Of a stretch of DNA of 20,207 bases, positions 3,032 to 18,471 are shown one piece after another. The first letter of the stretch is position 1. The number at the start of each line of letters is the position of its first letter. This DNA comes from a bacterium (lineage in GTDB: Bacteria; SM23-81; DAOVCL01): the NCBI GenBank assembly GCA_029932675.1, contig JAOZPP010000061.1, positions 1 to 20,207 on the forward strand, written 5' to 3'. Under the pieces are notes generated by a model. The model had not been told where the DNA came from, made no database searches, and saw only the letters and a list, made by a program, of their open reading frames with translations. The translations under genes and the position numbers were made by a program.

Positions 3032-3047
3032 CGCAAAAGGTGAAATT

Positions 3048-3275: not shown

Positions 3276-3280
3276 AAACG

Positions 3281-3415
3281 GGGCTGGCTAGCAGTGCATG
3301 TACCCGACCCGCCTTCGGCGGTGGATGAGCGGTGCGAATTTTGCCAGCCGTGGTTCTGGTTAAAGTTTCTTGGATTGCAAACACGGCAAGCGGGTGATGC
3401 TTTCGTTAGGCTAAC
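3281..3415 (+). repeat. Structured cassette-boundary element B, ending in GTTAGGC
   Basis: An inverted repeat GGCTGGC (3282-3288)/GCCAGCC (3343-3349) encloses a tight CCGCC-TTC-GGCGG hairpin (3309-3321). The segment ends in GTTAGGC (3405-3411), a full match to the integron R' core GTTRRRY, inside the palindrome GTTAG-G-CTAAC. The R'' side is not canonical, so this may be a diverged or compound attC. An open frame from 3294 runs through it into hicB, but that part has no protein-like character. The hicB start is at 3435. Confidence 0.4.
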
Positions 3416-3434
3416 AAGAAGTAGGAGAGGAGAT

Positions 3435-4243: not shown

Positions 4244-4261
4244 AGAAGGGTTCTTTCAAAC

Positions 4262-4425
4262 ATCGGGATCCAGGTGCCCCGTTGGGGAGAATAGGGAAGG
4301 TGGTGAAAATCCACCGCGGCCCCGCCACTGTGAGCAGCTTTCACCCGTTTTAGGTCACTGTTTTAGAAAAGGAACGGGAAGGCCTAAGATGCTGTTATGC
4401 TGTAAGCCAGGAGACCTGCCTGAGA
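4262..4425 (+). ncRNA. Cobalamin (adenosylcobalamin-type) riboswitch
   Basis: Conserved blocks appear in the correct order. AGGTGCC lies near 4272. GGGAA then GGTGAAAATCC lie near 4294-4312. The hallmark CGGCCCCGCCACTGTGA follows near 4316-4332, then GGAA with GGCC near 4371-4384. The B12 box AGCCAGGAGACCTGCC is at 4405-4420. It senses cobalamin and should lower expression of the two downstream genes when B12 is plentiful. The downstream hairpin at 4472-4500 is the likely expression platform. Confidence 0.95.
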
Positions 4426-4471
4426 TCTGCTTTTTGCATCTATCCTCGAGGGAGGATGTGAGCGTCCAGTT

Positions 4472-4513
4472 AGCCCAATTCCTTTTCGGGGAGTTGGGCT
4501 TTCCATTTTTATC
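4472..4513 (+). terminator. Riboswitch-controlled terminator hairpin
   Basis: AGCCCAA (4472-4478) pairs with TTGGGCT (4494-4500), with an inner CC/GG closing. It is followed by the T-rich run TTCCATTTTTATC. A second small hairpin, ATCCTC-GAGG-GAGGAT (4442-4457), lies between the aptamer and this stem and could be the competing structure. The position, after the aptamer and before the first start codon, supports premature termination in the bound state. Confidence 0.65.
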
Positions 4514-4532
4514 CTTAAAGGTGAAATCAAGA

Positions 4533-5066
4533 ATGGTTCTCACCACCAAAGAGCTTGTCAGGATGGGATTTTTTGTCGCCCTGGCCTTGGCTCTGGGTTT
4601 TGCCTTAGCCCATATTCCCAATGTGGAGCTTATTATGTTGACCATATTTTTATCTGGCTGCTTTCTGGGCAAGTTCAAAGGGATGTTGGTGGGGTCTGTT
4701 GCTATGGCACTATTTTCTTTCTTTAATCCCTTGGGCCCTGCGGTGATGCCGGTAGCCGGTGCCCAGGTGATAGGTATGGGATTAGTTGGGTTCGGGGGGG
4801 GGGTGATGGGGAAGAGGATAGGGAGAGTTAGGTCTATTTTAGCCAAAGGAGCTTTACTGGCAGGGGGAGGGTTTTTTCTTACCTTTTTCTATGATCTCCT
4901 CACCAATCTTGCCTTTGCCCTGGCCTTTGGTTTGAGAAGGGAATGGTATGTGGTTGTTGTCGGAGGCCTCACTTTTTCCCTTGTTCATATGGTTTCCAAC
5001 CTCCTTATCTTCGCCCTCGTAGGGGGGGCGATCTTGAGGCGAAGGTGGGGGCTGTTCAACAATTAA
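4533..5066 (+). CDS. ECF transporter S-component-like membrane protein, cobalamin-regulated
   Basis: 177 residues, nearly all hydrophobic, with five to six predicted membrane helices. A conserved-looking segment in the first half reads I-P-N-V-E-L-I-M-L-T-I-F-L-S-G, then G-x-L-V-G-S-V-A-M-x-L-F-S-F-F-N-P-L-G-P and P-V-A-G-A-Q-V-I-G-M. This is the pattern of ECF-type substrate-binding S components. The frame is open further upstream into the riboswitch, but ATG 4533 with AAAGGTG about 9 bases before it is the only sensible start. Control by the B12 riboswitch and co-transcription with a BtuB-like receptor point to cobalamin, or a precursor, as the substrate. A solitary BtuM-type transporter is another possibility. 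No energising ATPase or EcfT gene is in the window. Confidence 0.8.
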   Translation: MVLTTKELVRMGFFVALALALGFALAHIPNVELIMLTIFLSGCFLGKFKGMLVGSVAMALFSFFNPLGPAVMPVAGAQVIGMGLVGFGGGVMGKRIGRVRSILAKGALLAGGGFFLTFFYDLLTNLAFALAFGLRREWYVVVVGGLTFSLVHMVSNLLIFALVGGAILRRRWGLFNN

Positions 5067-5081
5067 AATTAAGGGGGGTAA

Positions 5082-6941
5082 ATGAAAACTAGAGCATTAG
5101 TTATCGCCCTTTTCTTGGGTTGGCTTAGCGTGGCTGGGGCTAATCAGGGAGTAGATACTACACTGGTGGACACGACCCAAGTGAGCTATTCCTTGGAGCC
5201 GATTGTTGTTACGGCCACCCGCTATCCTCAGCCCCTTTCCCAGGTTTCACCGAATTTTACTCTCATTACATCCGAACAAATTGATAAGATGGCTGGCAAA
5301 GACCTGGGGGAGGTTTTGGGGCTTTGTTCAGGAGTACACCTAGGCCGCTATGGGGGGAGTGGTCAATTAATTGCCTTGAGTATGAGAGGGAGCACCCCTG
5401 GGCAGATTCTCTTCTTGATGGATGGCCGTCCTCTAAATAGTCCACAGAATGGAGGCTTGGACTTGAACCAGGTTCCTCTATCCTCTGTAGAGAGGGTAGA
5501 AGTGGTCAGAGGGGGGCTTTCTTCCCTCTATGGGGCCGATGCTGTGGGGGGGGTGGTGAACATAATAACCAAGGAGTTTAAAGGTTCGCGTCCGTATTCC
5601 AGGATTGGGTTTTGGCAGGGGGATTATGGTTTTAGAAGAAGCCAATTTGAATTAGGGAGGGGGATAGGGGAGAGGTTAAACCTTTACCTTAGCGGGGAGA
5701 TGAAAAACTACGGCGGATATAGGCCGAATAGTGAATATAAAGCCAGCACAATCGCTGGTAATTTGAGTTACAGTTTATCAAGGGATTGGCAGTTGACCTT
5801 TTCCTCACTGAACTACAAAGGTGAGCTGGGCGTTCCGGGACCAATTTTTTCTTCTACTCCCAATGCCCGACAGAATGACAAAAGGGTCGATTTTTCATTT
5901 GGATTACAAAGAAGGAGGTGGTGGCCTGGTCAATTTAAGGTTCAAGCCTATCTTTCCAATTCTTGGCAGAGGTATAACAACCCAGATCCACTTTGGCCTA
6001 CATATTCCACCCATCAGAACAGGGTCTATGGCCTAAGCTTTCAAGGGGGGGCCCTAGGGCCGGGGGTAAACCTTGGGGTAAGGGTAGAAAGGGTAGGTTT
6101 CTGGAGCACCGATATAGGCACTACTAATGTGGGAAGAGCGGCAATTTGGATGGAGGATGACCTTAAACCTGCTCCCAGGATAACCCTGCGAGTGAGCAGT
6201 AGGTTAGATCACCACACTACCTTTGGCCATCAATTCTCGCCAGGAACTAACCTTACCTATCAAATAGGGAATGAATCGCTTCTCTTCGGCTCTTTTAACC
6301 GTTCCTATCGTGCTCCGACGGCCAATGATCTTTATTGGAGGGATCCATATATGGCCGGTAATCCGGATCTGAGGCCGGAGAGAGGATGGGAGGTGCAAAT
6401 GGGGTTCAAAACGGCTTGGAGGGAGGAAAACCACTTGGTGGTTAACTTTTTCTACCGGAGAATGAGGGATCTAATCGAATGGGAGGCCGATCCTCGGACA
6501 TTCAAATATACGGTGGTCAATAAGACACGGGCGGAATTTGTGGGAGAAGAGCTGAGCCTTATCTTCCTTCCCATTAGCCCCCTTCGGATCGGTGCGGTTT
6601 ATAATCTGTTGTGGGCAGAGGAGAGTGGGAAAGGTCCACTCCCTTATCAGCCGTTCAATTCGCTGAGGCTGTGGTTTAATTTTTCTCCCCGGTTAATTGA
6701 CAAGAAATTGGTGCTTAATCTTTGGATGGAGGGAGGATGGAGGGATTTTAGATATACAGAGAGGGGGAGTAGGCTTCCTCCAACTTTCCTGTTAAATTCC
6801 ACTTTGACCATAAGCTTTTTAGATTTAAGTGTTTATTTGAAGGGGGAAAACTTGAGCAATATCGGCTATCAACTGCGAAACGGCTACCCTATGCCCCCTC
6901 GCTCCTTTTATGGGGGACTTTCTTGGAGGTTCTGGGACTAA
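5082..6941 (+). CDS. btuB: TonB-dependent outer-membrane receptor, BtuB-like
   Basis: 619 residues, close to the ~614 of E. coli BtuB. A Sec signal peptide covers about residues 1-20 (charged start, ALVIALFLGWLSVAGA). The plug domain (about 39-165) shows I-V-V-T-A-T-R-Y, the D-G-R-P-L-N hairpin, V-E-R-V-E-V-V-R-G, and S-L-Y-G-A-D-A-V-G-G-V-V-N-I-I-T. The remainder alternates aromatic and polar residues as in a 22-strand barrel, with an N-P-D-L-R-P-E-R-G-W-E motif in the middle. The last strand ends F-Y-G-G-L-S-W-R-F-W-D, so the usual terminal Phe is replaced by Trp-Asp. AAGGGGGG precedes the ATG, 15 bases after the ECF gene. Cobalamin specificity is inferred from the riboswitch. Confidence 0.9.
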   Translation: MKTRALVIALFLGWLSVAGANQGVDTTLVDTTQVSYSLEPIVVTATRYPQPLSQVSPNFTLITSEQIDKMAGKDLGEVLGLCSGVHLGRYGGSGQLIALSMRGSTPGQILFLMDGRPLNSPQNGGLDLNQVPLSSVERVEVVRGGLSSLYGADAVGGVVNIITKEFKGSRPYSRIGFWQGDYGFRRSQFELGRGIGERLNLYLSGEMKNYGGYRPNSEYKASTIAGNLSYSLSRDWQLTFSSLNYKGELGVPGPIFSSTPNARQNDKRVDFSFGLQRRRWWPGQFKVQAYLSNSWQRYNNPDPLWPTYSTHQNRVYGLSFQGGALGPGVNLGVRVERVGFWSTDIGTTNVGRAAIWMEDDLKPAPRITLRVSSRLDHHTTFGHQFSPGTNLTYQIGNESLLFGSFNRSYRAPTANDLYWRDPYMAGNPDLRPERGWEVQMGFKTAWREENHLVVNFFYRRMRDLIEWEADPRTFKYTVVNKTRAEFVGEELSLIFLPISPLRIGAVYNLLWAEESGKGPLPYQPFNSLRLWFNFSPRLIDKKLVLNLWMEGGWRDFRYTERGSRLPPTFLLNSTLTISFLDLSVYLKGENLSNIGYQLRNGYPMPPRSFYGGLSWRFWD

Positions 6942-7107: not shown

Positions 7108-7113
7108 TTGGAT

Positions 7114-8448
7114 ATGCGGATAAAGAAGAGGGAAGATGTCATCCTCGATTCCATTGCCGAGGGGGTCTTCACTGTGGATCTCACATGGAAGATTACCTCC
7201 TTTAACCGAGCTGCAGAGAAGATAACGGGCATTCCTCGCCAGGAGGCCATAGGTAGGCCATGCAGCGATGTCTTCCGGGCCAATATCTGTGAAGCAGATT
7301 GCGCCCTCCGACGGACTATGGAGACCGGGAAGCCAGCCTTGGCCAACAAGGCGATTTACATCGTTAATGCGCGGGGAGAGCGGATCCCAGTTAGTGTATC
7401 TACGGCGATTTTGAGAGATCAAGGCGGAAAGATCATCGGTGGAGTGGAGATCTTCCGCGATCTCAGTTTGGTTGAGGAACTCCGCAAGGAACTGGAGGGC
7501 CGCTATAGCTTTGCAGACATCCTGAGCCAAAACCATGAAATGCATAGGCTTTTTGACATCCTCCCTGAAGTAGCCCGTAGCGAAAGCACAGTTTTGATTG
7601 AAGGAGAAAGCGGAACTGGGAAAGAACTTTTTGCCAGAGCCATCCATAACCTGAGCCCCCGTTGCCAGGGTCCCCTGATAGTGGTCAACTGCGGAGCTCT
7701 TCCTGACACCCTCTTGGAATCAGAACTCTTTGGTTATAAGGCTGGGGCTTTCACCGATGCTAAGAGGGACAAGCCTGGTCGCTTTGCTTTAGCCGAAGGG
7801 GGGACTATTTTCTTGGATGAAATTGGGGACGTCTCCCCGGCCCTTCAAGTTCGGCTGCTCAGGGTACTTCAGGAAGGGACCTATGAACCCTTAGGTGCAA
7901 CTCGGCCAGTTAAAGCTGATGTGAGGGTGGTCACGGCGACCAACAAGGACCTCGCCGAGTTAGTGAAAAGGGGGGAGTTTAGGCAGGACCTATATTATCG
8001 GGTAAATGTGGTGAAGCTTTCTCTCCCCCCATTGCGTCAACGAAGGGAGGATATCCCTCTTTTAGTTGATCACTTTATCACCAGATTTAACCGCTTGCGC
8101 GGTAAAGACATCACTGGAGTCTCGCCTGAAGTGCTTAACATCCTGATGAAACACGATTTTCCAGGCAACGTGCGGGAGCTGGAAAACATCATAGAACACT
8201 CCTTTGTTTTATGTCGGGGCAAACTTATCCTCCCTGAACACCTTCCAGACTATCTCCAACCCTCTCAGGCCAGGGTTTCTCCTCCACTGACATTGAATGA
8301 GCTTGAGGCCCAGTTCATTGTTGATGCCCTCAGGCGAAATGGGTGGAACAGAATAGCAACGGCAAAGGAGCTGGGTATTCACCAGACCACCCTTTGGAGG
8401 AAGATGAAACGGTTTGGTATTCAACCACCGGAGAGGAAAACCAATTAA
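7114..8448 (+). CDS. Sigma54-dependent activator (PAS - AAA+ - Fis-type HTH), ORP-locus type
   Basis: 444 residues. The PAS domain (about 8-118) contains three cysteines (Cys50, Cys59 and Cys63, pattern C-x8-C-x3-C). The AAA+ domain (about 136-375) has Walker A GESGTGKE (164-171), the sigma54-contacting GAFTDA loop (211-216) and Walker B TIFLDEIGD (231-239). The sensor region has arginines in F-R-Q-D-L-Y-Y-R, then P-G-N-V-R-E-L-E-N. A Fis-type HTH is at the C-terminus (about 400-438, ATAKELGIHQTTLWRK). It should open sigma54 promoters after binding upstream sites; both kinds of site lie directly downstream (8449-8606). The closest known functional context is the DVU2106 activator of the Desulfovibrio ORP operons (established knowledge). 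The PAS signal is unknown. ATG 7114 is chosen because the promoter overlaps any earlier start. Confidence 0.92.
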   Translation: MRIKKREDVILDSIAEGVFTVDLTWKITSFNRAAEKITGIPRQEAIGRPCSDVFRANICEADCALRRTMETGKPALANKAIYIVNARGERIPVSVSTAILRDQGGKIIGGVEIFRDLSLVEELRKELEGRYSFADILSQNHEMHRLFDILPEVARSESTVLIEGESGTGKELFARAIHNLSPRCQGPLIVVNCGALPDTLLESELFGYKAGAFTDAKRDKPGRFALAEGGTIFLDEIGDVSPALQVRLLRVLQEGTYEPLGATRPVKADVRVVTATNKDLAELVKRGEFRQDLYYRVNVVKLSLPPLRQRREDIPLLVDHFITRFNRLRGKDITGVSPEVLNILMKHDFPGNVRELENIIEHSFVLCRGKLILPEHLPDYLQPSQARVSPPLTLNELEAQFIVDALRRNGWNRIATAKELGIHQTTLWRKMKRFGIQPPERKTN

Positions 8449-8494
8449 TTGCAAATTTGCAAATCATAGGGCCGAATAAAATGCAATTCTGCAA
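8449..8494 (+). promoter_or_regulatory. Two upstream activator sites (TTGCA-N3-TTGCA type)
   Basis: Site 1 is the perfect 14-bp palindrome TTGCAAATTTGCAA (8449-8462). Site 2, TGCAATTCTGCAA (8482-8494), reads TTGCA-GAA-TTGCA on the other strand, with the same 3-base gap. Their centres are about 32 bp apart, close to three helical turns, and lie about 130 and 160 bp before the predicted sigma54 start. That is the standard position for enhancer-binding protein sites. Confidence 0.7.
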
Positions 8495-8590
8495 TTTCCG
8501 TCCTTGAATTTCGTCCATCAACTACTTCCTTTGAATTTGTAACCTACTGTTATCTTTAGACTTAAAATATAATTGGAGATCTTTGCTGTT

Positions 8591-8606
8591 TGGCACGGAG
8601 TTTGCT
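8591..8606 (+). promoter_or_regulatory. Sigma54 (RpoN) promoter of the NifX/ATPase operon
   Basis: TGGCAC at 8591-8596, 5 bases, then TTGCT at 8602-8606. This is a full match to TGGCAC-N5-TTGCW, with the invariant GG (8592-8593) and GC (8604-8605) exactly 10 bases apart. The predicted start is near 8617, only 3 bases before the ATG at 8620. Confidence 0.88.
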
Positions 8607-8619
8607 TTATCTAAAGGCG

Positions 8620-9033
8620 ATGAAGGTAGCTCTTCCTGTCTGGAATTCCCGGATATCTCCTCTCTTTGATACTGCCCGCAACCTTCTAGTTGCTGAGGTA
8701 GAGGAGGGGGATGTCCTCTCCCGTGCAGAGGTGAGGTTTGAGGAGTATTACCCTCCCCGGCGGGTAAATAAACTAGTGAAGCTTGGTGTAAACACCTTGA
8801 TTTGTGGGGCTATCTCACGGCAATTCGCCGCTATGCTCATTGGTTCTGGGATTACCATCGTCCCTTGGATGAGCGGGTTGGTTGAAGATGTTCTGCAAGC
8901 GTATCTGGAGGGCAGGCTTTCCGACCACCGATTTCTCATGCCTGGATGTAGGTGGCGGGGGCCCAGAGGGAAGTTCCACGGAGGAATGAGAAGGGTTTGG
9001 TGGCAAACGAGGATTCATGAAGACTTATCTTGA
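8620..9033 (+). CDS. NifX/NifB-family (dinitrogenase Fe-Mo cofactor domain) protein, ORP-like
   Basis: 137 residues. The start M-K-V-A-L-P-V-W-N-S-R-I-S-P-L-F-D-T-A-R is diagnostic of the NifX-type fold that binds metal-sulfur clusters (as in NifX, NafY and ORP). The core L-G-V-N-T-L-I-C-G-A-I-S and G-I-T-I-V-P-W-M-S-G follow. The C-terminal 35 residues are basic and Trp/Arg/Gly-rich, and are not part of the fold. An upstream in-frame GTG-like extension to 8590 overlaps the sigma54 promoter and is rejected. There is essentially no leader: AAAGG lies just 2-3 bases before the ATG and mostly upstream of the predicted transcript start. First gene of the sigma54 operon; it overlaps the DUF89 gene by 17 bases. 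Confidence 0.88.
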   Translation: MKVALPVWNSRISPLFDTARNLLVAEVEEGDVLSRAEVRFEEYYPPRRVNKLVKLGVNTLICGAISRQFAAMLIGSGITIVPWMSGLVEDVLQAYLEGRLSDHRFLMPGCRWRGPRGKFHGGMRRVWWQTRIHEDLS

Positions 9034-9886
9034 GTGTATCCCTTGCTTTCTCCGTCAAACCTTAGAAGCAGTGAGGATGGTTACCGCTGACCCCAAATTA
9101 CAGGAATATGTGTTGCGAGAAGTACTGCGGCTTGTCTCGGAGATGGATCTCAATCAGTCTCCCCCCTATATGGGTTGGCAGATTCATAGGCTTATTCGTC
9201 AGGTAAGTGGTAACCCGGACCCCTATAGGGAGGTGAAGAGGAGATTTAATAGGTTCGCTATGGAGCTCTATCCCCAATTGAAGGAGAAAGTTGATCGATC
9301 CGAGGATCGATTCCAGACCGCGGTGAGATTGGCTATTGCTGGGAACATAATCGACTTTGGCCCCGCTGGAGCCATCGATGGGGAGAGGATGGACCAAACC
9401 ATCGATGAATCCCTGAAGAGCCCAATTGATGAAGAGGCCATTGAGAAGTTGCAGGTCAATGTCTTCAACGCAAGAGATATCCTTTATCTCACTGACAATG
9501 CCGGAGAGATAGCCTTCGATAGGTTGCTATTGGAAGAAATGCCCTTGGAGAGGATCACTTTAGTAGTCAAGGGGAGTCCAGTGATTAATGATGCTACCAT
9601 AGAGGATGCAGAGAATATAGGACTCTCCAATTTGGTAAAGCTCGTAGATAATGGATCGGATGTTCCCGGGACTATCTTAGAGCAGTGCTCGGAGAGGTTT
9701 CGTCGCCTCTTTAATCGGGCTGATCTGATCATTGCTAAGGGCCAGGGAAACTATGAAACGCTAAGCGAGTCTAACCATAGAAAGATATTTTTCTTGTTGA
9801 AGGTCAAATGTCCGGTTATTGCCAGGGACATCGGGTGCGATCCCGGTACATTAGCTGTTTTTGAGAACAGCCCTTCAGAGGATTGA
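9017..9886 (+). CDS. DUF89/ARMT1-like metal-dependent phosphatase family protein
   Basis: 289 residues. The N-terminus Y-L-E-C-I-P-C-F-L-R-Q-T-L-E-A (Cys7 and Cys10) is typical of the prokaryotic DUF89 branch (COG1578). The phosphatase-type metal site is visible as Asp160-Asn161 in T-D-N-A-G-E-I-x-F-D. K-G-S-P-V-I-N-D-A-T follows near 186-195, then K241-G-Q-G-N-Y-E-T. Related proteins are 'damage-control' phosphatases acting on sugar phosphates and phosphometabolites. The substrate here is unknown. The start overlaps the end of the NifX-like gene, so the two are coupled. Its place between a cluster-binding protein and an Fe-S ATPase suggests a role in removing a damaged intermediate or in metal handling, which is inference only. 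Confidence 0.85.
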   Translation: MKTYLECIPCFLRQTLEAVRMVTADPKLQEYVLREVLRLVSEMDLNQSPPYMGWQIHRLIRQVSGNPDPYREVKRRFNRFAMELYPQLKEKVDRSEDRFQTAVRLAIAGNIIDFGPAGAIDGERMDQTIDESLKSPIDEEAIEKLQVNVFNARDILYLTDNAGEIAFDRLLLEEMPLERITLVVKGSPVINDATIEDAENIGLSNLVKLVDNGSDVPGTILEQCSERFRRLFNRADLIIAKGQGNYETLSESNHRKIFFLLKVKCPVIARDIGCDPGTLAVFENSPSED

Positions 9887-9934
9887 AGTTAACCCTCTAA
9901 TATGATCTGATAGAGGCTAAAATGGAGGCATATT

Positions 9935-10738
9935 ATGGCCAATCAAGAGGATGAGAAGGTCAAAGCGACTTTGTCGAGGATGAAGAACAGGCTTCTGATA
10001 TTTAGTGGTAAGGGAGGTGTGGGTAAAAGCACAGTTGCAGCCAATTTAGGCTTAGCTTTTGCTAAAAAGGGATTGAAAGTTGGCCTTTTGGATGTTGACA
10101 TTCACGGGCCAAACCTGGCGAAGATGTTAGGGGTAGAGGGACAGAGGATGGGGGCAACGGGAAAAGATAGGATCTTACCCGTGTCCGTTACAGAAAACTT
10201 GAAACTCGTTTCAATGGCGTTCCTTCTCCAAGACCCTGACCTTCCGGTGATCTGGCGGGGTCCGTTAAAGATGAAGGCTATTCGGCAATTCCTGGGAGAT
10301 GTTGAATGGGGGAATTTGGATTGGTTGATAGTTGACTCCCCTCCTGGGACTGGTGATGAACCGCTTTCGGTTGCTCAGCTCATCCCTGCCACAGGTGCCA
10401 TAATCGTAACTACACCTCAAGATGTATCGATTCTGGATTCCCGAAAGGCGGTCAATTTTGCCCGTAAACTTAATCTCCAGATAGTGGGAATAATCGAGAA
10501 TATGAGCGGATTTGTCTGTCCTCACTGCGGGGAGAGGATTAACCTCTTCAAGGAAGGGGGGGGCGAGAGAGCCGCCGCAGAGTTAGGGGTAACATTTTTG
10601 GGCAGGGTGCCCATAGACCCGAATATTGTGGAATCTGGCGATGATGGGAAACCTTTCGTCTCCAGTCAGCCTGAATCTGAGGCGACAAAGGCTTTTACCA
10701 GAATAGTTGAAAAGGTTATAGAAAGGGGAACCGGCTAA
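9935..10738 (+). CDS. mrp: Mrp/NBP35-family P-loop ATPase (Fe-S cluster carrier)
   Basis: 267 residues. The deviant Walker A is SGKGGVGKST (24-33). D-V-D-I-H-G-P-N follows, then I-V-D-S-P-P-G-T-G-D-E as Walker B/switch, and the CxxC pair Cys195/Cys198 in S-G-F-V-C-P-H-C-G. This matches Mrp/ApbC/NBP35 proteins, which dimerise, bind a bridging [4Fe-4S] cluster at the CxxC and pass it to target proteins. The N-terminal DUF59 domain of many bacterial Mrp proteins is absent. GGAGG precedes the ATG. The corresponding ORP-locus component in Desulfovibrio is also an Mrp-type ATPase, which supports a common pathway. Confidence 0.93.
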   Translation: MANQEDEKVKATLSRMKNRLLIFSGKGGVGKSTVAANLGLAFAKKGLKVGLLDVDIHGPNLAKMLGVEGQRMGATGKDRILPVSVTENLKLVSMAFLLQDPDLPVIWRGPLKMKAIRQFLGDVEWGNLDWLIVDSPPGTGDEPLSVAQLIPATGAIIVTTPQDVSILDSRKAVNFARKLNLQIVGIIENMSGFVCPHCGERINLFKEGGGERAAAELGVTFLGRVPIDPNIVESGDDGKPFVSSQPESEATKAFTRIVEKVIERGTG

Positions 10739-10795
10739 AAGTAGCAATTCCTTAGGGCAGCATCTTGGCTCCTTTTTAAGGCTAAGGGGGTGAGA

Positions 10796-11047
10796 ATGCC
10801 TGTATACGAATATAGGTGTGAGGACTGCGGAAGGATAACTGAGGTCTTGCAAAAGGGATTAGGGTGGGGGGAAGCTCTCACCTGTCCAGATTGTGGAGGC
10901 TCCAATCTTACCCGGTTGTTCTCCGCGCCAGGTATGGTTAGGACTGGTGGATTTTCTGCAAAAGGAACTACCTGTTGTGGAAGGACAGAACGGTGTGACA
11001 GGCCACCTTGTTCTCCCAACGGTGTCTGCCGGAAGGCTGATCTTTGA
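10796..11047 (+). CDS. FmdB-family zinc ribbon protein with Cys-rich tail
   Basis: 83 residues. The start M-P-V-Y-E-Y-R-C-E-D-C-G and the second pair C-P-D-C-G (Cys8, 11, 30 and 33) define the FmdB regulatory-type zinc ribbon. After the F-S-A-P-G-M-V segment there is an unusual tail with five more cysteines, in C-C-G-R-T-E-R-C and P-P-C-S-P-N-G-V-C. ATG 10796 is preferred to the GTG 6 bases earlier because AAGGGGG is correctly spaced for it. A second FmdB protein lies at 13580. Role unknown; it is a likely metal-binding accessory of the operon. Confidence 0.87.
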   Translation: MPVYEYRCEDCGRITEVLQKGLGWGEALTCPDCGGSNLTRLFSAPGMVRTGGFSAKGTTCCGRTERCDRPPCSPNGVCRKADL

Positions 11048-11130
11048 TGGGAACTTAGCTCGTTATATTTGGCTTTTCCCTTTATAATTTGGAAGGGCAA
11101 GAACTAAGAAGTTTAAGAAAGGAGGTTAAA

Positions 11131-11538
11131 ATGCCAGGTGGAGATGGAACTGGACCGGCAGGGCTTGGTCCAATGACTGGTAGGGCTGCCGGTTTCTGTG
11201 CCGGCTATGCTGTCCCCGGTTATATGAACCCCATTCCTGGGCGGGGTTATTGGGGATTGGGTAGAGGATACTGGGGATGGGGTGGTGGTCGGGGCCATCG
11301 GAACTGGTATTATGCCACCGGACTTCCCGGGTGGGCAAGGGCTAGTTGGGGATATCCCGCTTGGCGGACGGTTCCGATTGGGGGATATACTCCTCCCTAT
11401 GCTCCAGTTCATTCGCCATACTTGACCCGTGAGCAGGAGATCGATTTCCTTAAAGGGCAGGCTGAATATTTTGAGGATGCCCTTGATGGGATCAAAAAGC
11501 GTATAGAAGAACTGGAGAAGAAGGGGGAGGAGAAGTGA
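11131..11538 (+). CDS. DUF5320-like Gly/Trp-rich protein with C-terminal coiled coil
   Basis: 135 residues. The header M-P-G-G-D-G-T-G-P-A-G-L-G-P-M-T-G-R is the signature of the DUF5320-type proteins found beside NifX and MinD/ferredoxin genes in anaerobes. A low-complexity Gly/Trp/Tyr/Arg-rich middle (about 30-90) follows. The C-terminal ~35 residues form a charged amphipathic helix (E-Q-E-I-D-F-L-K-G-Q-A-E-Y-F ... R-I-E-E-L-E-K-K), probably a coiled coil. The strong AGGAGG fixes the ATG at 11131. No biochemical function is known. It is possibly a partner or scaffold of the cluster-binding proteins. A related header starts the protein at 12443. Confidence 0.8.
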   Translation: MPGGDGTGPAGLGPMTGRAAGFCAGYAVPGYMNPIPGRGYWGLGRGYWGWGGGRGHRNWYYATGLPGWARASWGYPAWRTVPIGGYTPPYAPVHSPYLTREQEIDFLKGQAEYFEDALDGIKKRIEELEKKGEEK

Positions 11539-11544
11539 GATGTT

Positions 11545-11580
11545 CCAGGTGGGGGAAGGGGTCCCTCTTCCCCCACCTGG
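11545..11580 (+). terminator. Strong intra-operon hairpin without a T-tract
   Basis: CCAGGTGGGGGAAG (11545-11558) and CTTCCCCCACCTGG (11567-11580) are a perfect 14-bp inverted repeat with an 8-base loop. No run of T follows, and the next gene begins 27 bases later. It may attenuate transcription or protect the upstream mRNA end, rather than fully terminate. Confidence 0.5.
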
Positions 11581-11607
11581 AGCTCTATTCAGAGGAGGTA
11601 AAAGCTT

Positions 11608-12372
11608 ATGAAAGTGGCGGTGACAGCAGAAGGAACTGGCTTGGATTCAAAGGTTGACCCAAGGTTCGGTCGGTGTCCCTATTTTCTTTTTGTGGAGACC
11701 GAGACGATGGACTTTGAAGCGGTGGAGAATTCTAATCTCTCGCTCGGTGGCGGAGCCGGGATTCAAGCTGCCCAATTTGTTGCCGAGAGGGGAGCTAAGG
11801 CAGTGCTTACTGGCAACTGTGGCCCTAATGCCTACCAGACCCTCACTGCTGCCGGGGTTCAGGTAGTGGTTGGCGTGAACGGATTGGTGAAGGAGGCTGT
11901 AGAAAGGTTCAAATCTGGTGGACTAAGGGCAACATCTGGGCCTAATGTAGAGGGGCATTTTGGCACTGGTGGATTGCCCCATTCAGGGCGGCCAGGAGGG
12001 GGATTTGGTCGGGGGATGGGAAGGGGGTACCGAATGGGGTTGGGGAGGTCACATCCGGTATTGAGGGAGGGGGGTGTACCTAACCAATTGAGCCGAGAGG
12101 ATGAGTTGAGGATGCTGCGGGAAGAGGCCCGGGCCATTGAGGAGGAGAAAAATCGTCTGGAGGAGCGGATTCGTCAGCTCGAGGTTGGGACTGGAACTCG
12201 TGCTATCGCTATAATTGATCAGGAGAAGTGCTCTGGCTGTGGGATTTGTATTCCTGTCTGCCCTACGCAAGCCATTCAGATGGAAGGGGAAAAAGCTGTA
12301 GTGAAGGATGGGTGTACAGCATGTGCTCGATGTGTGGGAGTATGTCCCACTGGAGCTATAAGTATAGGCTGA
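11608..12372 (+). CDS. NifX domain - Gly-rich linker - coiled coil - 2[4Fe-4S] ferredoxin fusion protein
   Basis: 254 residues in four parts. Residues 1-105 are a NifX/dinitrogenase-cofactor domain (D-P-R-F-G-R-C-P-Y-F start; L-T-G-N-C-G-P-N-A core). About 110-150 is a Gly/Arg-rich stretch resembling the DUF5320-like neighbours. About 158-193 is a heptad-type coiled coil (E-D-E-L-R-M-L-R-E-E ... R-L-E-E-R-I-R-Q-L). About 200-254 is a ferredoxin with two [4Fe-4S] motifs: Cys208, 211, 214, 218 and Cys236, 239, 242, 246. AGAGGAGG supports the start. The fusion ties a metal-cluster scaffold to an electron-transfer module in one polypeptide. Known relatives are mostly single-domain NifX proteins next to separate ferredoxin-type genes. 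Confidence 0.9.
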   Translation: MKVAVTAEGTGLDSKVDPRFGRCPYFLFVETETMDFEAVENSNLSLGGGAGIQAAQFVAERGAKAVLTGNCGPNAYQTLTAAGVQVVVGVNGLVKEAVERFKSGGLRATSGPNVEGHFGTGGLPHSGRPGGGFGRGMGRGYRMGLGRSHPVLREGGVPNQLSREDELRMLREEARAIEEEKNRLEERIRQLEVGTGTRAIAIIDQEKCSGCGICIPVCPTQAIQMEGEKAVVKDGCTACARCVGVCPTGAISIG

Positions 12373-12442
12373 TTTGAAGTATTGATTACAGGGGGAATAT
12401 CCCGTAAAAAACTTTGGTCTAAACCTAAAAAGGGAGGGAAAG

Positions 12443-12670
12443 ATGCCAAGAGGTGATGGAACAGGTCCTTTGGGTCAGGGGCCAGGGACCGGAAGGGGGA
12501 TGGGGATGGGACGGGGCGGTGGTCGGGGGAGGATGGGAGGGTATGGGTTGGGCCCAGGGGGAAGCTGTATTTGCCCAAGTTGTGGGAAGAAAGTCCCCCA
12601 TTCCCAAGGAACGCCTTGCACCCAGATGAGATGTCCTGCCTGTGGTGCCCCGATGACGAGGGCTAGATGA
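12443..12670 (+). CDS. DUF5320-like Gly-rich protein with C-terminal zinc ribbon
   Basis: 75 residues. The header M-P-R-G-D-G-T-G-P-L-G-Q-G-P-G-T-G-R matches that of the protein at 11131. A Gly/Arg/Met-rich stretch follows. In place of a coiled coil, the C-terminus carries C-x-C-P-S-C-G-K-K ... C-x5-C-P-A-C-G, a zinc-ribbon or rubredoxin-like metal site. AGGGAGGG precedes the ATG. Function unknown; it is a likely metal-binding companion of the flanking fusion protein and MinD-type ATPase. Confidence 0.8.
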   Translation: MPRGDGTGPLGQGPGTGRGMGMGRGGGRGRMGGYGLGPGGSCICPSCGKKVPHSQGTPCTQMRCPACGAPMTRAR

Positions 12671-12717
12671 TGGGAATTGTTGCCTCTCAATGATCTGCCG
12701 ATCCCTAAATAGGACCT

Positions 12718-13575
12718 ATGAAGATAGCTGTCGCCAGTGGTAAGGGGGGGACAGGGAAGACCACCGTGGCCACAAATTTGGCCTCTGTTATGGCAGAGGA
12801 AGGGCAGAAGCTGGTTTACATCGATTGCGATGTGGAAGAGCCAAATGGACACATCTTCCTTAAACCGGCGATAAGGCGAAGGATCCCCGCGGGGATACCT
12901 ATCCCGCAAGTCGACACAGAAAAGTGCACTGGCTGCGGGCTCTGCGGTCAAATCTGCCAATACAGCGCAATTGTGGTCATTAACAAAAGGGTGTTGACCT
13001 TTCCCCAACTGTGTAACGGTTGTGGAGGGTGTTCACTGATCTGTCCGGTGGGGGCAATCAAAGAGGTGCCCCGGCAGATAGGGGTGGTGGAGGTAGGCAC
13101 GGCGGATGGGATGGACTTTGTCCAGGGGTTTCTGGCTATTGGTGAAGTCAGGGCAACGCCCTTGATTAAGAAGGTGAAGGGCTCTGCTCCCCCTGGTGAG
13201 GGGATAAGCATTGTTGATGCCCCACCGGGAACCTCCTGTCCGGTTATCGAGTCGGTTAAAGGGGCAGACTTTGTCGTCTTGGTAACCGAGCCCACACCAT
13301 TTGGCCTCAATGACCTCAAACTTGCCGTGGGGATGATCCGGGAGCTATCCATCCCCTTTGGGGTGGTAATCAATCGATCTAATGTAGGGGACGAGGAGGT
13401 GAAAAGGTATTGCCAAACCGAGGGGATCAAAATTTTGTTAGAGATACCAGAAGACCGCCAGGTAGCTGAAGCCTACTCGCGGGGGGAGTTGGCCATCAAC
13501 GCCCTCCCTGAATATCGATCCCGGTTTCGTCAGTTGTTTAAATCCGTGGAGAGGAATTTTAAGGGAAAGGGGTAA
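12718..13575 (+). CDS. MinD-superfamily P-loop ATPase with inserted ferredoxin domain (copy 1)
   Basis: 285 residues, COG1149 type. The deviant Walker A SGKGGTGKTT (7-16) and C-D-V-E-E-P-N-G are followed by an inserted 2[4Fe-4S] ferredoxin: Cys70, 73, 76, 80 and Cys99, 102, 105, 109. The ATPase then resumes with G-I-S-I-V-D-A-P-P-G-T-S-C-P-V-I and V-V-L-V-T-E-P-T-P-F-G-L-N-D-L. Pairs of such proteins are core members of the Desulfovibrio ORP complex, where they associate with the NifX-like ORP protein. A copy with 293 residues ends this operon. Likely role: ATP-driven Fe-S or heterometal cluster transfer. The FmdB gene follows after 4 bases, so they are tightly coupled. Confidence 0.93.
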   Translation: MKIAVASGKGGTGKTTVATNLASVMAEEGQKLVYIDCDVEEPNGHIFLKPAIRRRIPAGIPIPQVDTEKCTGCGLCGQICQYSAIVVINKRVLTFPQLCNGCGGCSLICPVGAIKEVPRQIGVVEVGTADGMDFVQGFLAIGEVRATPLIKKVKGSAPPGEGISIVDAPPGTSCPVIESVKGADFVVLVTEPTPFGLNDLKLAVGMIRELSIPFGVVINRSNVGDEEVKRYCQTEGIKILLEIPEDRQVAEAYSRGELAINALPEYRSRFRQLFKSVERNFKGKG

Positions 13576-13579
13576 ACCT

Positions 13580-13786
13580 ATGCCTATCTTCGAGTATAGA
13601 TGCAAAAACTGTGGTCAAATCACTGAGTTCCTGGAAAGGGCCGACTTCAAGGGGGAACATATTTGCCAGGGTTGTGGGAGCAGGGAGATGGAGAAGCAGA
13701 TCTCCCTGTTTAGCGCCCAGATCTCCGGTAGCTCCTCTTCAACAAGCAGCGACACCTGTCCCACCGGAACCTGTCCGCTCTCTTAA
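13580..13786 (+). CDS. FmdB-family zinc ribbon protein (copy 2)
   Basis: 68 residues. M-P-I-F-E-Y-R-C-K-N-C-G and the second pair Cys29/Cys32 give the FmdB zinc ribbon. A Ser-rich linker (S-S-S-S-T-S-S) leads to a short C-terminal D-T-C-P-T-G-T-C-P-L-S with Cys60 and Cys65. Copy 1 also has cysteines in its tail, though in a different arrangement. It sits 4 bases after the MinD-type ATPase with AAGGGG as ribosome site. Role unknown; probably metal binding within this operon. Confidence 0.85.
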   Translation: MPIFEYRCKNCGQITEFLERADFKGEHICQGCGSREMEKQISLFSAQISGSSSSTSSDTCPTGTCPLS

Positions 13787-13800
13787 CCGGTGGGGAATCC

Positions 13801-14334
13801 TTGTCGGATTTCTACGAGCGGCTTAAACCCTGGTTGTTCAGCCAGGTTGCTGAGGAATTAAGGTACGCCAATTGCATCTTAGATCTGGGATGTGGAGATT
13901 GTAAACTTCTTCGTTGGTTGGCTGAAACCTATGGAAAGAGCACCATAGGAGTGGACATATCTGATCTGGGGTTTCCTCCAGCAGGGGAGGGGATAAGCTG
14001 CCTCCGGGGAGATGCTCAATCGCTTGATTTCATTGGTAAGGGGGCTATAGATGCGGTTCTCCTCTTCTGGTCCTTACATGAGATGGGAGACCCCTTAGCC
14101 GTTCTTCAGGAGGCCAGGAGAGTTCTTCACCCCTTAGGGGAGGTTCTCATCATCGAATTCCCGCGAGGCTCTTTGGCTCAAAAACTATGGAACGAAACCT
14201 ACTATTCTGTAGGGGAAGTAGCCAATATGCTTAGGGAAACTGGCTTTTGGAGATCAGAAGCGAGGTTAATTGTCCATCGCCAATTGATTTGGGCTAAAGG
14301 GTTCAAGGGCCCTCGCCCAAAGGGGGTGAGGTGA
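13801..14334 (+). CDS. Small class I SAM-dependent methyltransferase
   Basis: 177 residues. Motif I I-L-D-L-G-C-G-D-C-K (26-35), acidic V-D-I-S (51-54), G-D-A-Q-S near 72, A-V-L-L-F-W-S-L-H-E-M (motif IV region) and L-H-P-L-G-E-V-L-I-I-E-F define a type 11-like Rossmann methyltransferase. The chosen start is TTG at 13801, with GGTGGGG in front; no ATG lies near the family N-terminus. The stop overlaps the next start (GTGA), so it is coupled to the second MinD/ferredoxin ATPase. The substrate is unknown. Its place between two cluster-ATPase genes suggests a protein or small thiol/metal ligand as the methyl acceptor, which is speculative. Confidence 0.85.
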   Translation: MSDFYERLKPWLFSQVAEELRYANCILDLGCGDCKLLRWLAETYGKSTIGVDISDLGFPPAGEGISCLRGDAQSLDFIGKGAIDAVLLFWSLHEMGDPLAVLQEARRVLHPLGEVLIIEFPRGSLAQKLWNETYYSVGEVANMLRETGFWRSEARLIVHRQLIWAKGFKGPRPKGVR

Positions 14335-15212
14335 AGGAACTTGTGGTGATAAGCGGCAAAGGGGGCACAGGGAAGACGAGCTTGGTTGCTTCCTTCTCCA
14401 CCTTGGCGGAAAGGAAGGTTCTTGCCGATTGTGATGTGGATGCTGCTGACCTCTGGCTCATCCTGGAACCCCGGATACTTCGTCGGAAGCCCTTTTCTGG
14501 AAGTAAGAAAGCAGAGATAATTGAGGAGAAATGCACAGCTTGCGGAAGATGTGAGGAGGTTTGTCGCTTTGAGGCCATCAGGGGCACTGGTCCCCCAGAG
14601 GATCGAGTCTACAGGGTGGATCCCATTGGCTGTGAAGGATGTGGCGTCTGTTTCTATATCTGTCCGGAGAAGGCCATTGATTTTCAAGAGCGGATCAACG
14701 GTGAGTGGTTCATCTCTGAGACCCGCAATGGGCCATTGGTTCATGCTAAGCTGGGCATCGCTGAGGAGAATTCGGGAAAGCTGGTTACCTTGGTGCGGAA
14801 GGAAGCTAAGCATCTGGCTGAGGAGCGAGGTTTAGATTTAGTAATTATCGACGGATCGCCGGGCATTGGCTGTCCGGTGATTGCCTCTGTTACCGGGGCT
14901 GACCTCGCTCTGGTGGTCACCGAGCCTACCCTTTCTGGTCAGCATGATTTAGAGCGGGTGACTAAATTGACTGCCCATTTTGGTATACCAACAGTTGTCT
15001 GTATCAACAAGTATGACCTCAATCCCCAGATGTCTGCAGTAATAGAGGGATGGGCAAGGGAGGTGGGTCTGAAAGTAGTAGGTAGGGTGAGGTATGATCC
15101 AGCGGTGACTAAAGCCCAGATTATGAGGGCTAGCCTGGTGGAGTACACTGGTGGCAAGATAGCGGAGGAGGTAAGATCCCTCTGGAGGCACATAGTCTAT
15201 GAACTAGGTTAA
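14331..15212 (+). CDS. MinD-superfamily P-loop ATPase with inserted ferredoxin domain (copy 2)
   Basis: 293 residues. The start is GTG at 14331, overlapping the methyltransferase stop. Walker A is SGKGGTGKTS (8-17), then C-D-V-D-A-A-D. The inserted ferredoxin has Cys68, 71, 74, 78 and Cys101, 104, 107, 111. I-I-D-G-S-P-G-I-G-C-P-V-I and V-V-T-E-P-T-L-S-G-Q-H-D-L follow. It is clearly a paralogue of the 12718 gene; the two probably work as a pair, as the two COG1149 proteins of the ORP complex do. It is the last gene of the operon, and a strong terminator follows within 14 bases. Confidence 0.93.
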   Translation: MKELVVISGKGGTGKTSLVASFSTLAERKVLADCDVDAADLWLILEPRILRRKPFSGSKKAEIIEEKCTACGRCEEVCRFEAIRGTGPPEDRVYRVDPIGCEGCGVCFYICPEKAIDFQERINGEWFISETRNGPLVHAKLGIAEENSGKLVTLVRKEAKHLAEERGLDLVIIDGSPGIGCPVIASVTGADLALVVTEPTLSGQHDLERVTKLTAHFGIPTVVCINKYDLNPQMSAVIEGWAREVGLKVVGRVRYDPAVTKAQIMRASLVEYTGGKIAEEVRSLWRHIVYELG

Positions 15213-15225
15213 TCTATGAGCTCTT

Positions 15226-15270
15226 CCAAGAGGGGGGCTACCCTTTAAGGTAGCCCCCCTCTTGGTTTAC
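15226..15270 (+). terminator. Bidirectional-looking terminator between convergent genes
   Basis: CCAAGAGGGGGGCTACC (15226-15242) and its exact complement (15249-15265) make a 17-bp stem with loop CTTTAA, followed on the + strand by TTTACTT. It closes the metal-cluster operon and lies directly after the stop of the minus-strand lipoprotein gene. Confidence 0.88.
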
Positions 15271-16820
15271 TTCCTTGTGGTGAAGGAAAACCGGTAGGGG
15301 TAGGGGAGCTTCATTCCACCGATGTCCTGGGCCGATGTGTCCACCTGCACGGTGTAGGTGGTATTTGCCCGTAGGTATCCTTCAGGATGGAAATAGAATT
15401 CGTAGAGGGAATTCCACTCGAAGTGGCCTTCGGCTGGGGGATCGATGGAGAAGGCGCTTTCTGCTTTTTCCTGATCCACTGAGGTGTTGAATAGAATCGA
15501 TATACTGGCTGTGGTGTCTACCCAGGTTGCCCCATTGACCGGATGGGTGGAGCTTATTCGCAGCGGTTCGGTTGTAAAGGAGAAGGAATCGGGTTCTGCC
15601 AGCTTCGTCCCATAGATGTCCCTTGCCGCTTGAGATACCTTTACCGTATATACGGTGCTGGTGGTCAAGGGGGAGCCTGGCTGAAAACGGATTTCGCTTC
15701 CCCAGGGGCTGTAATTGCTTGAGAAATACCCCTCTACCGGCGGGGAGAAGGAGAGGGCCCCATATAGGCTCTCCTCCTCCATCCACCCATTGAAGGAAAG
15801 GCGGATATAGATTTTGGTGGGCACATCGGTGGCGCCATTGGAAGGGGAGGAGTAGCGGAGGTATAGGCCTTCTGTGCTAAAGCGGACTGAATCGGGTCCT
15901 TTGAAGCCAAATCCATTTACATCCCTTGCCCCTTCACCAATGACAATGGTATATTCCGTATCTGCCCTCAGGGGAGTATTGGGCTCGATGTTCAGGCGGG
16001 AGCCCGAATAGGGGAAGTCGGAATACCAGTTATAGGTGCAGCTCAGCGGGGGGTCAATGGAGAGGGCATCTTTGGTAGAACTATGGTCCATCTCGCTGTT
16101 AAACCTGATGGTGATGTGATCCCACAACTCCACATCCTTTTCCCCTGCCGTGGGATGGGTTGATTCCACCCTTATTCGATCCGTGGTGAACGAAAACGAG
16201 TAGTCAAAGGAGAGGCTTTCACCCTCCTCGGTTTGTGCACCTCTCGTAAGGGTCACCGTGTAGGTAGTCTCTGGGATGAGGGAAAAATTGGGCTGATAGC
16301 GGAAATTCCTGCTTCCGCCCTGCCAGACGAATTCACCCTCCAGAGGGGGATCTATGCTAAATGAGGATTCCACACTCCCCTCATCCATTGCCTTTAGGAA
16401 GGAGAGGGAGATATAATTGGCTAAAGGAACCCTTCTATCCCCGTCTCGGGGATGGGTTGATGTAATTTGAGCGGGCATTGCGGAGAGGGTTATCAGGGGA
16501 ACGGTGGTGATCGCTCCATCAGAAACGGTAACCTCCTTTGATGTATAGCTACTATACCCAGGGGCGCTTAGCCGCAAGAAATAGGTTCCCACCCTGAGCC
16601 CATCGATCCGATAGTAACCCTCTTTATCCACCCAGGTGGAGTCCACTGGCTTACCTTGGAGGGCAACTACCTTCGCTCCACAACCCTTTGGCTCTACCGT
16701 TCCCACAATACTTCCCCTACCGTATGGGTTGGTAGTCTTGTTCTCGCTACAACCCACTAGAAAGGTCAAAGCCCAGAGGAGGATGAGGATATATCCCCAA
16801 AGGTTTCTGGATAAATCCAT
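15267..16820 (-). CDS. Lipoprotein with carboxypeptidase-regulatory-like domain and four Big_5 Ig-like repeats
   Basis: 517 residues. A signal peptide ends in the lipobox L-V-G-C with Cys24, so this is a lipid-anchored envelope protein. About 35-112 is a carboxypeptidase regulatory-like beta sandwich (G-S-I-V-G-T-V-E, D-K-E-G-Y-Y-R-I-D-G-L, G-T-Y-F-L-R-L-S-A-P-G-Y). Four Big_5-type repeats of ~100 residues follow, each with S-T/S-H/S-P ... N/F-x-M-x-x-x-S ... S-I/F-S/D-P-P ... L-x-x-x-T-x-Y-T-V ... F-S-F-T-T. There is no catalytic domain. It is likely an adhesive or structural surface protein. AGGAGGTG supports the ATG. It follows the DUF3795 gene by 32 bases on the same strand. Confidence 0.9.
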   Translation of the reverse strand: MDLSRNLWGYILILLWALTFLVGCSENKTTNPYGRGSIVGTVEPKGCGAKVVALQGKPVDSTWVDKEGYYRIDGLRVGTYFLRLSAPGYSSYTSKEVTVSDGAITTVPLITLSAMPAQITSTHPRDGDRRVPLANYISLSFLKAMDEGSVESSFSIDPPLEGEFVWQGGSRNFRYQPNFSLIPETTYTVTLTRGAQTEEGESLSFDYSFSFTTDRIRVESTHPTAGEKDVELWDHITIRFNSEMDHSSTKDALSIDPPLSCTYNWYSDFPYSGSRLNIEPNTPLRADTEYTIVIGEGARDVNGFGFKGPDSVRFSTEGLYLRYSSPSNGATDVPTKIYIRLSFNGWMEEESLYGALSFSPPVEGYFSSNYSPWGSEIRFQPGSPLTTSTVYTVKVSQAARDIYGTKLAEPDSFSFTTEPLRISSTHPVNGATWVDTTASISILFNTSVDQEKAESAFSIDPPAEGHFEWNSLYEFYFHPEGYLRANTTYTVQVDTSAQDIGGMKLPYPYRFSFTTRK

Positions 16821-17307: not shown

Positions 17308-18348
17308 TTATGAATCAAATCTGGGGAAGAGCTCCTTCAATGATTCTCTGGTCTCCTCCATAGCGGTTAGCTTCTTCACCAATTGCAATTTGATCCCCAA
17401 CCCAGAGGCAATGGGCTTTAGCAGATGGAAGACCATCTCCTTTTCCACCTGGATCTCGGTGGGCAAGGATTTGGCCCTCTCCAGCAGCTTTATACACTCT
17501 TCGGCGAATTGGGAGGGGAGCTCGGACCCCTTAAGGAGGAAGACATCTAAGATAAATCGTGAATCCTGGTCAATCCAGATCGAGAGGTAAGGATAAAAGG
17601 GCCTTTCCCCCCTTTTGTCCCTCACCGGCTCGGGGGAGTAGGAAAAATCAACCTCCCAGGTCATTGGTTGGTGGGGGGCTACCTTTTCGATCCTCTTCAA
17701 CCGGACCTCATCAATTGGGGGCAGAACGACCTCTTTCTCCTCTATGGGCTTTAATTCCATCCATTCGTCCTTCCAGCTAAGCCCGGAGGCATCTTTGACC
17801 GGAACCCTAACCAGCAATTGGTTTCCCTTGGGAGGTGTAAGCAGATCTTCGTTATCCAAAAAGCGAAGGCAAACATCTTTGGCCTGCTCTAAGGCCAAGG
17901 TCAAGTATCTCACCTCCTCCCGCGTTAGGTACCAGGGGTAGTAGCCCGGGGAATAGTTGCGGAAGAGAGGCCAGGAGTTATGTCCTCTAAATTTCAATCC
18001 AAGCCTCTTTATCACCTCCAGATCGGCCTTTGTCAGATATCTTCTGTCTTCGAAGGAGGCCATTAAACACTTCTGGATATGGATTGCATCCAGAGTATCC
18101 ATGGGAACCTCTTGGGATTGGATCTTTAGGTATCCCCTTAATCCCTCTTCGCCCAGATAGACTGCCAGGGCGAACATCTCCCCCCACGCCCCTAATATGC
18201 AACAGTAGCCTACTTCCCCATTTTCCGGATTCTGCACGCCAAAGAGGTCCGAATCGAGCATCCAGTCCCAACTCTCTATTTCCTTGAATTCCTCTGCTGC
18301 CTTATACAATCCCCGCCAATCCTCCAGGGTTGGTTTCTTGCTTGCCAT
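17308..18348 (-). CDS. DUF7309/DUF6930-like protein of unknown function
   Basis: 346 residues, soluble, no signal peptide. The N-terminal ~110 residues contain W-D-W-M-L-D-S-D-L-F-G-V-Q-N-P and G-E-V-G-Y-C-C-I-L-G ... A-L-A-V-Y-L-G-E-E-G-L, which resembles DUF7309. A central R-N-Y-S-P-G-Y-Y-P-W-Y-L-T-x-E-E-V-R-Y-L motif and the C-terminal part with F-Y-P-Y-L-S-I-W-I-D resemble DUF6930. No catalytic residues can be assigned. AAAAGGAGAGGG precedes the ATG. It stands alone on the minus strand, with hairpins on both sides. Confidence 0.7.
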   Translation of the reverse strand: MASKKPTLEDWRGLYKAAEEFKEIESWDWMLDSDLFGVQNPENGEVGYCCILGAWGEMFALAVYLGEEGLRGYLKIQSQEVPMDTLDAIHIQKCLMASFEDRRYLTKADLEVIKRLGLKFRGHNSWPLFRNYSPGYYPWYLTREEVRYLTLALEQAKDVCLRFLDNEDLLTPPKGNQLLVRVPVKDASGLSWKDEWMELKPIEEKEVVLPPIDEVRLKRIEKVAPHQPMTWEVDFSYSPEPVRDKRGERPFYPYLSIWIDQDSRFILDVFLLKGSELPSQFAEECIKLLERAKSLPTEIQVEKEMVFHLLKPIASGLGIKLQLVKKLTAMEETRESLKELFPRFDS

Positions 18349-18425: not shown

Positions 18426-18471
18426 TATGAGCATATTTGGGGGATTATCTCCTGAAGCATTTAAGCTCATA
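18426..18471 (-). terminator. Inverted repeat spanning the stop codon of the isomerase-like gene
   Basis: TATGAGC (18426-18432) pairs with GCTCATA (18465-18471), a 7-bp stem with a long loop. The stop codon (18467-18469) lies inside one arm. There is no T-tract on the minus strand. Weak terminator candidate. Confidence 0.3.

Follow-up and report, generated by a model that had tools for sequence, protein, structure and literature searches.

An ORP-type operon under sigma54 control with a suggested role in metal-sulfide handling

What the 'orange protein' (ORP) complex of anaerobes does has been debated ever since it was discovered, with cell division and iron-sulfur (Fe-S) maturation both put forward. 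The same question is raised by a gene run on contig JAOZPP010000061.1. The window analysed here is this one complete contig (20,207 bases) from a 3.03-Mb draft genome that is 97% complete. The analysis located a sigma54 activator gene, eleven intact and packed genes and a closing terminator on the + strand at 7108–15265. Intergenic spacing within the eleven-gene run ranged from a 17-nt overlap up to 83–92 nt. All genes listed by the initial annotation, which was made from the sequence without database searches, were present. With modest confidence, we read the locus as a redox-induced ORP-type operon in which metal sulfide is held on NifX and DUF5320 proteins and moved by ATPases together with an Mrp protein. 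We infer the metal-sulfide function and the redox signal in the source organism.

Kinship to ORP, the regulation and the gene neighbourhood were well supported by sequence comparison. The best PDB match of the NifX domain in a NifX-DUF5320-ferredoxin fusion protein was ORP of D. gigas (2WFB, E 1e-24). Two paralogous MinD-type ATPases (A and B) were present, with two 4Fe-4S motifs each, as in the Desulfovibrio locus. The Walker A motif is deviant in both, and each has eight cluster cysteines; these features were invariant over 45 ATPase A sequences. The published description of Orp3 and Orp4 of Desulfovibrio reads alike, and in vitro the Orp3-Orp4-Orp8 complex receives Fe-S clusters from MrpORP (PMC6345978). 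In D. vulgaris Hildenborough, the complex comprises Orp3/4/5/8/9 (DVU2103, 2104, 2105, 2108 and 2109). Its operons are controlled by sigma54 and the activator DVU2106, as has been demonstrated.

The two systems also differ. The window has one collinear operon, whereas D. vulgaris Hildenborough has two divergent ones. Beyond the latter, the window holds a DUF89 protein, a methyltransferase, two FmdB and two DUF5320 proteins and the fusion protein. The initial annotation, which had described an ORP-like locus with a fuller gene set than that of Desulfovibrio, was supported on both counts. Moreover, the Mrp of Desulfovibrio is fused to NifX (MrpORP) and the Mrp of the window is not. Because of the missing NifX domain, it scored 379 bits against the MrpORP profile (NCBIfam NF041136; first 250 of 365 positions), below the cut-off of 450. 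The locus is therefore termed ORP-type and not the orp operon itself. A genuine Mrp-NifX fusion was found in a related genome (G003, locus L016).

Two other functional assignments were considered. A NifX/NifB role in nitrogenase cofactor synthesis was rejected, because the 97% complete genome contained no PF00148 match (NifDK/NifEN-type subunits). With respect to a defence role, the sole PADLOC match was a generic methyltransferase domain.

The initial annotation had placed the run behind a dedicated sigma54 activator. The activator gene indeed lies ahead of an exact TGGCAC-N5-TTGC promoter, for which 0.03 matches were expected by chance in the window, and rpoN (sigma54) is encoded in the genome. 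Judged from the promoter, transcription would begin almost at the start of NifX1 (8620), and the transcript would be almost leaderless. The palindrome TYGCA-N4-TGCRA (one mismatch allowed) had only two matches in the window, 32 bp apart and upstream of the promoter. At the orp promoters of D. vulgaris Hildenborough, palindromic DVU2106 sites lie upstream of the sigma54 site as well (PMC3897727). The GAFTDA motif of DVU2106, a variant tabulated in PMC4641369, was present in the window activator.

This layout recurred in other genomes. A sigma54 site matching at least nine of ten positions followed the activator gene in 14 of the 17 loci read, and inverted TYGCA..TGCRA repeats lay between the activator stop codon and the promoter in about 12 of them (counted by eye). 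Sixteen activators located ahead of or inside such operons, in several phyla, had the cysteine pattern CX8CX3C in the PAS domain. The pattern was mostly absent from activators elsewhere in these loci. The PAS domain of the window activator, judging by its cysteines, probably holds a redox-active Fe-S cluster. A paper of 2021 on OrpR reportedly describes a redox-sensitive [4Fe-4S] cluster in the PAS domain.

The stricter pattern TTGCA-N4-TGCAA occurred at five places in the genome, versus none for the reversed control pattern. Four further exact copies, on contigs 54, 75, 83 and 93 of this genome, are possible further regulator sites.

Table 1. Features of the operon and its control region in the window
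Feature	Position	Strand	Details
OrpR-like sigma54 activator	7108..8448	+	PAS + AAA+ + Fis-type helix-turn-helix (HTH_8); PAS CX8CX3C (C52, C61, C65); GAFTDA in AAA+
Proposed activator site 1	8449..8462	none	palindrome TTGCAAATTTGCAA
Proposed activator site 2	8481..8494	none	ATGCAATTCTGCAA; 32 bp from site 1
Sigma54 -24/-12 promoter	8591..8605	+	TGGCACGGAGTTTGC
NifX1	8620..9033	+	PF02579, 40 bits; FDTA-type, without RFGR/HFGR motif; short basic tail; first gene past activator
DUF89/ARMT1-like metal-dependent phosphatase (predicted)	9017..9886	+	PF01937, 246 bits; nearest PDB entries 2G8L, 2FFJ
Mrp/NBP35-type Fe-S carrier ATPase	9935..10738	+	PF10609, 338 bits; no NifX fusion
FmdB1, FmdB-type zinc ribbon	10796..11047	+	zinc ribbon 1
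DUF5320a	11131..11538	+	80 bits; GDGTGP motif; basic Gly/Arg/Trp/Tyr-rich segment; charged (helical) C-terminus
NifX-DUF5320-ferredoxin fusion	11608..12372	+	PF02579, 93 bits; two Fer4
Parts of the fusion (residues)			ORP-like NifX 1-107; disordered Gly/Arg tail 110-160; helix 163-194; 2[4Fe-4S] ferredoxin 200-254
DUF5320b	12443..12670	+	26.4 bits, slightly below the Pfam cut-off of 27; GDGTGP Gly/Arg-rich segment; Cys-rich zinc-ribbon-like end
ATPase A, COG1149 type	12718..13575	+	deviant Walker A SGKGGTGKT; two inserted 4Fe-4S motifs
FmdB2, FmdB-type zinc ribbon	13580..13786	+	zinc ribbon 2
Class I SAM methyltransferase (Methyltransf_11)	13801..14334	+	profile match
ATPase B, COG1149 type	14331..15212	+	paralogue of ATPase A; two 4Fe-4S motifs
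Intrinsic terminator	15226..15265	+	17-pair stem

The first gene of the run may belong to the regulation. Among loci with at least 6 kb upstream, an FDxA-type NifX was found in 9 of 13 activator-bearing loci and in 3 of 32 others (p 0.0001), mostly as the gene directly after the activator. NifX1 could thus work with the activator instead of serving as a metal scaffold, and the operon would then both sense and handle metal sulfide. This would be an addition to the proposed function, not an alternative. We offer it as a tentative idea, drawn from gene position: the loci share ancestry, so the test overstates their independence, and the motif search overlooks diverged forms.

The gene neighbourhood was compared across a scan of 84,980 species genomes, from which the best 80 ATPase A loci were taken (about 20 phyla, including archaea). 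Neighbours were counted within 8.5 kb on the same strand; many contigs were short, and the counts are hence lower bounds. ATPase B was found at 78 loci, NifX at 75 and DUF5320 at 50, followed by Mrp (35), a NifU_N scaffold (24), FmdB (18), radical SAM (16), DUF89 (15), metallo-beta-lactamase (15), the activator with the cysteine-bearing PAS domain (14) and methyltransferases (13). The matches were concentrated close to ATPase A and were hardly ever on the opposite strand. As the same combination recurs in other genomes, it is more than a chance arrangement.

The phylum of the window was represented by four genomes. A genome of the same genus kept the order DUF5320, NifX fusion, DUF5320b, ATPase A, FmdB2, methyltransferase and ATPase B; its locus contig begins past the expected DUF89 position, and no DUF89 was found elsewhere in that genome. 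Two genomes from another family of the phylum had NifX1, DUF89, several DUF5320, FmdB, NifX, both ATPases and a methyltransferase. They add a NifU-type scaffold and a metallo-beta-lactamase protein. The activator was present in one of the two (G003), where the cluster occurs in two copies on different contigs (L016 and L017). Around the ATPase pair, DUF89, methyltransferase, FmdB, DUF5320 and NifX thus recurred in another family of the phylum, in other phyla and in archaea. The phosphatase and the methyltransferase are therefore not confined to this genome; such confinement was what the initial annotation had named as speaking against it.

Among the neighbours outside the counted classes, DUF134, DUF364 (heavy-metal chelation), Fur, DUF1847, CGGC and DUF59 formed clusters, and a FeoB-like large GTPase and a DtxR-like regulator were recognised by eye. 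No division gene was identified among the clustered neighbours of the 80 loci. This bears on the proposal, first made for Desulfovibrio, that ORP-type proteins place the division site or aid chromosome segregation via MinD/ParA-like ATPases. The fold and sequence of the ATPases are of the MinD type, the genome has no MinC, and both the proposal and a polar location of MrpORP have been published (PMC4672049, PMC6345978). However, PMC4672049 itself terms the proposal a hypothesis in need of confirmation, and the eight cluster cysteines conserved in both ATPases argue against it. The recurring neighbours are iron and metal genes, without an identified division gene; metal/sulfur handling is therefore favoured, and a division role appears very unlikely.

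The genome had three DUF5320 matches, all inside the operon. Over 73 DUF5320 segments (55 residues), the median composition was 31% Gly, 14.5% aromatic, 12.7% Arg/Lys and 0% acidic residues, and the median net charge was +6, compared with 0 for other open reading frames. The DUF5320 profile was also matched in frame by 14 NifX proteins of related loci. A comparable tail is known from IssA (P. furiosus, PF2025), a NifX-family protein that stores thioferrate. Of the 70 residues in its basic tail, 15 are Gly, 14 aromatic and 7 cationic. The authors of the IssA study also pointed out that Trp, Gly and Arg are conserved among relatives with long tails (PMC5524996).

Set against this published description, the window has the same architecture of a NifX-family domain with a disordered, basic, Gly/aromatic-rich tail. 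The linker of the fusion protein (residues 110–160) was predicted to be disordered (model pLDDT 70.6 with three alignment rows, used for order and disorder only). Aromatic residues are scarce in the Gly/Arg-rich tail of the fusion itself and are found instead in DUF5320a. The window differs from IssA in that the tail also occurs as separate DUF5320 proteins, with ATPases and ferredoxin alongside. DUF5320 occurs both separately and fused to NifX, and as a basic tail rich in Gly and aromatic residues it resembles the IssA tail in composition. The family is essentially without literature, and no paper linking it to IssA was found in the literature searched. DUF5320 proteins might act as stand-alone IssA-type tails. 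Together with NifX they could make up a depot for metal sulfide, much as ferritin stores iron but in anaerobes. The paired ferredoxin-ATPases would fill and empty it, a sigma54 activator that senses Fe-S would control it, and it would be spread over many phyla of bacteria and archaea. In this full form, we regard the proposal as unlikely.

Alternatively, the same proteins could serve a dedicated pathway for the assembly or repair of one specific heterometal-sulfur cofactor, like the molybdenum-copper (Mo-Cu) cluster of ORP, for a target enzyme. The initial annotation had leaned this way. Radical SAM, NifU-type scaffold, methyltransferase and phosphatase would then be biosynthetic steps. The NifU_N, radical SAM and methyltransferase genes that the 80 loci add are in line with this, and ORP itself carries a Mo-Cu cluster (PMC6345978). 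Contig 57 of the same genome (L019, 3378–7314) points in the same direction with two metallo-beta-lactamase proteins near a NifX-radical SAM fusion of 458 aa, all from families that elsewhere have counterparts within the operon or related loci of other genomes. However, no target enzyme was consistently found beside the locus. The radical SAM, methyltransferase and phosphatase genes are optional and the methyltransferases non-orthologous, which would be odd for a linear pathway. Moreover, holding and mobilising iron sulfide, as in IssA, suits the DUF5320 tails at least as well. A dedicated cofactor pathway is accordingly a doubtful explanation.

For the metal-sulfide operon that we prefer, the following sequence of events is proposed. 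The OrpR-like activator, with its three-cysteine PAS domain and probable redox-active Fe-S cluster, would bind the paired palindromes and probably drive the sigma54 promoter under reducing, anaerobic conditions. The NifX domain would be the metal-sulfide scaffold, and the basic Gly/Arg/aromatic DUF5320 tails would bind the anionic metal sulfide electrostatically, as has been proposed for the IssA tail. Mrp would deliver Fe-S clusters to partners, and ATPases A and B, as a MinD/NifH-fold pair, would load, reduce or release the metal sulfide at the expense of ATP. Electrons would be passed on by the ferredoxin of the fusion protein, with DUF89 and the methyltransferase as accessory enzymes. We infer the scaffold and the ATPase, Mrp and ferredoxin steps for the source organism. 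Simple Fe-S clusters, a storage polymer and a defined heterometal cofactor are all conceivable as the material held.

Several observations weigh against this reading. The palindrome spacing differs from locus to locus, and the cross-locus count of palindromes has no null. Unrelated activators may have three-cysteine PAS domains as well, and the comparison with DVU2106 covered its GAFTDA motif. The likeness to IssA is one of composition and architecture, set against a description, and not one of homology. Finally, the fold matches of ATPase A were undecided among Fe-S carriers, NifH/BchL and MinD. Its predicted structure (pLDDT 95.8) was not decisive as a guide to function, with ApbC, BchL, MinD, HypB-type and NifH all at Z 21–25.

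The two accessory enzymes fared differently in the neighbourhood search that the initial annotation had set as its test, with DUF89 recurring as predicted and the methyltransferase only in part. Near ATPase A, DUF89 was found 15 times on the same strand and never on the opposite strand, versus 0.07 expected (background 0.14 per Mb). Over 60 genomes, 14 had both DUF89 and ATPase A, 7 and 7 had one of the two and 32 had neither (p 0.0002, or 0.001 without the window's own phylum). Both the enrichment and the co-occurrence figures are uncorrected for shared ancestry.

The window DUF89 protein matched PF01937 over its full length and has all invariant residues of the family. Damage-control phosphatases of the DUF89/ARMT1-like group (2G8L, 2FFJ) also matched along its length, and it is therefore probably an active phosphatase, although it scored below the NCBIfam equivalog cut-off (213 vs 440 bits). 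One dedicated clade for the DUF89 proteins of such loci was rejected, as linked and unlinked rows were mixed (9 changes vs a shuffled mean of 10.6). Seven linked DUF89 proteins, that of the window included, clustered together (90/94). In two unrelated genomes, DUF89 was read by eye near hypA/hypB-like genes (L046, 6302–9008; L052, 9601–11706), which is a pointer to metal-cofactor maturation; the region in L052 adjoins hydrogenase-like genes.

The methyltransferases were a heterogeneous class I group, and a conserved orthologue was not supported. A clear orthologue was found only in the genome of the same genus (73%), with others at about 31% or less. The window type stood between both ATPases again only in L066 (31%). 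The cut-off of the DVU_1556-family methyltransferase (NF045667) was not reached (47.9 vs 155 bits). As class I methyltransferases are commonplace whatever the genome, their association is weaker than that of DUF89. The roles of both enzymes in the operon would be accessory ones.

The ORP-type system as such is already known. In the papers searched, no description was found of the extended set with DUF89, the placement of DUF89 in a metal-sulfur operon, the cross-phylum promoter layout or the resemblance of DUF5320 to IssA. The recurring Fur, Feo, NifU, DUF59 and heavy-metal neighbours favour metal/sulfur handling for ORP-type systems. With extra genes and control signals that recur in unrelated bacteria and archaea, ORP-type function becomes easier to test. 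The composition of DUF5320 poses a concrete question, namely whether it binds iron sulfide. Through the conserved promoter layout, the regulon could be traced in further genomes, and the DUF89 link places an orphan phosphatase family in a physiological context.

The remainder of the window contained other genes. Convergent to the operon, at 15267–16820 (- strand), lies a lipoprotein-like protein; it contains four Big_5 Ig-like domains as well as one that is carboxypeptidase-regulatory-like. At higher coordinates on the same strand lie a DUF7309/DUF6930 protein (17308–18348) and a protein of 427 aa that matched no Pfam family (18467–19750). Upstream, at 4255–6941, a Cobalamin riboswitch (111 bits) precedes a weak match to an ECF-type transporter S component (4533–5066) and a TonB-dependent receptor (5082–6941), which probably form a cobalamin uptake operon. 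Three small open reading frames at 2804–3653, the middle one (3048–3275) with a weak match to an MqsA-like zinc finger, may be toxin-antitoxin-like genes.

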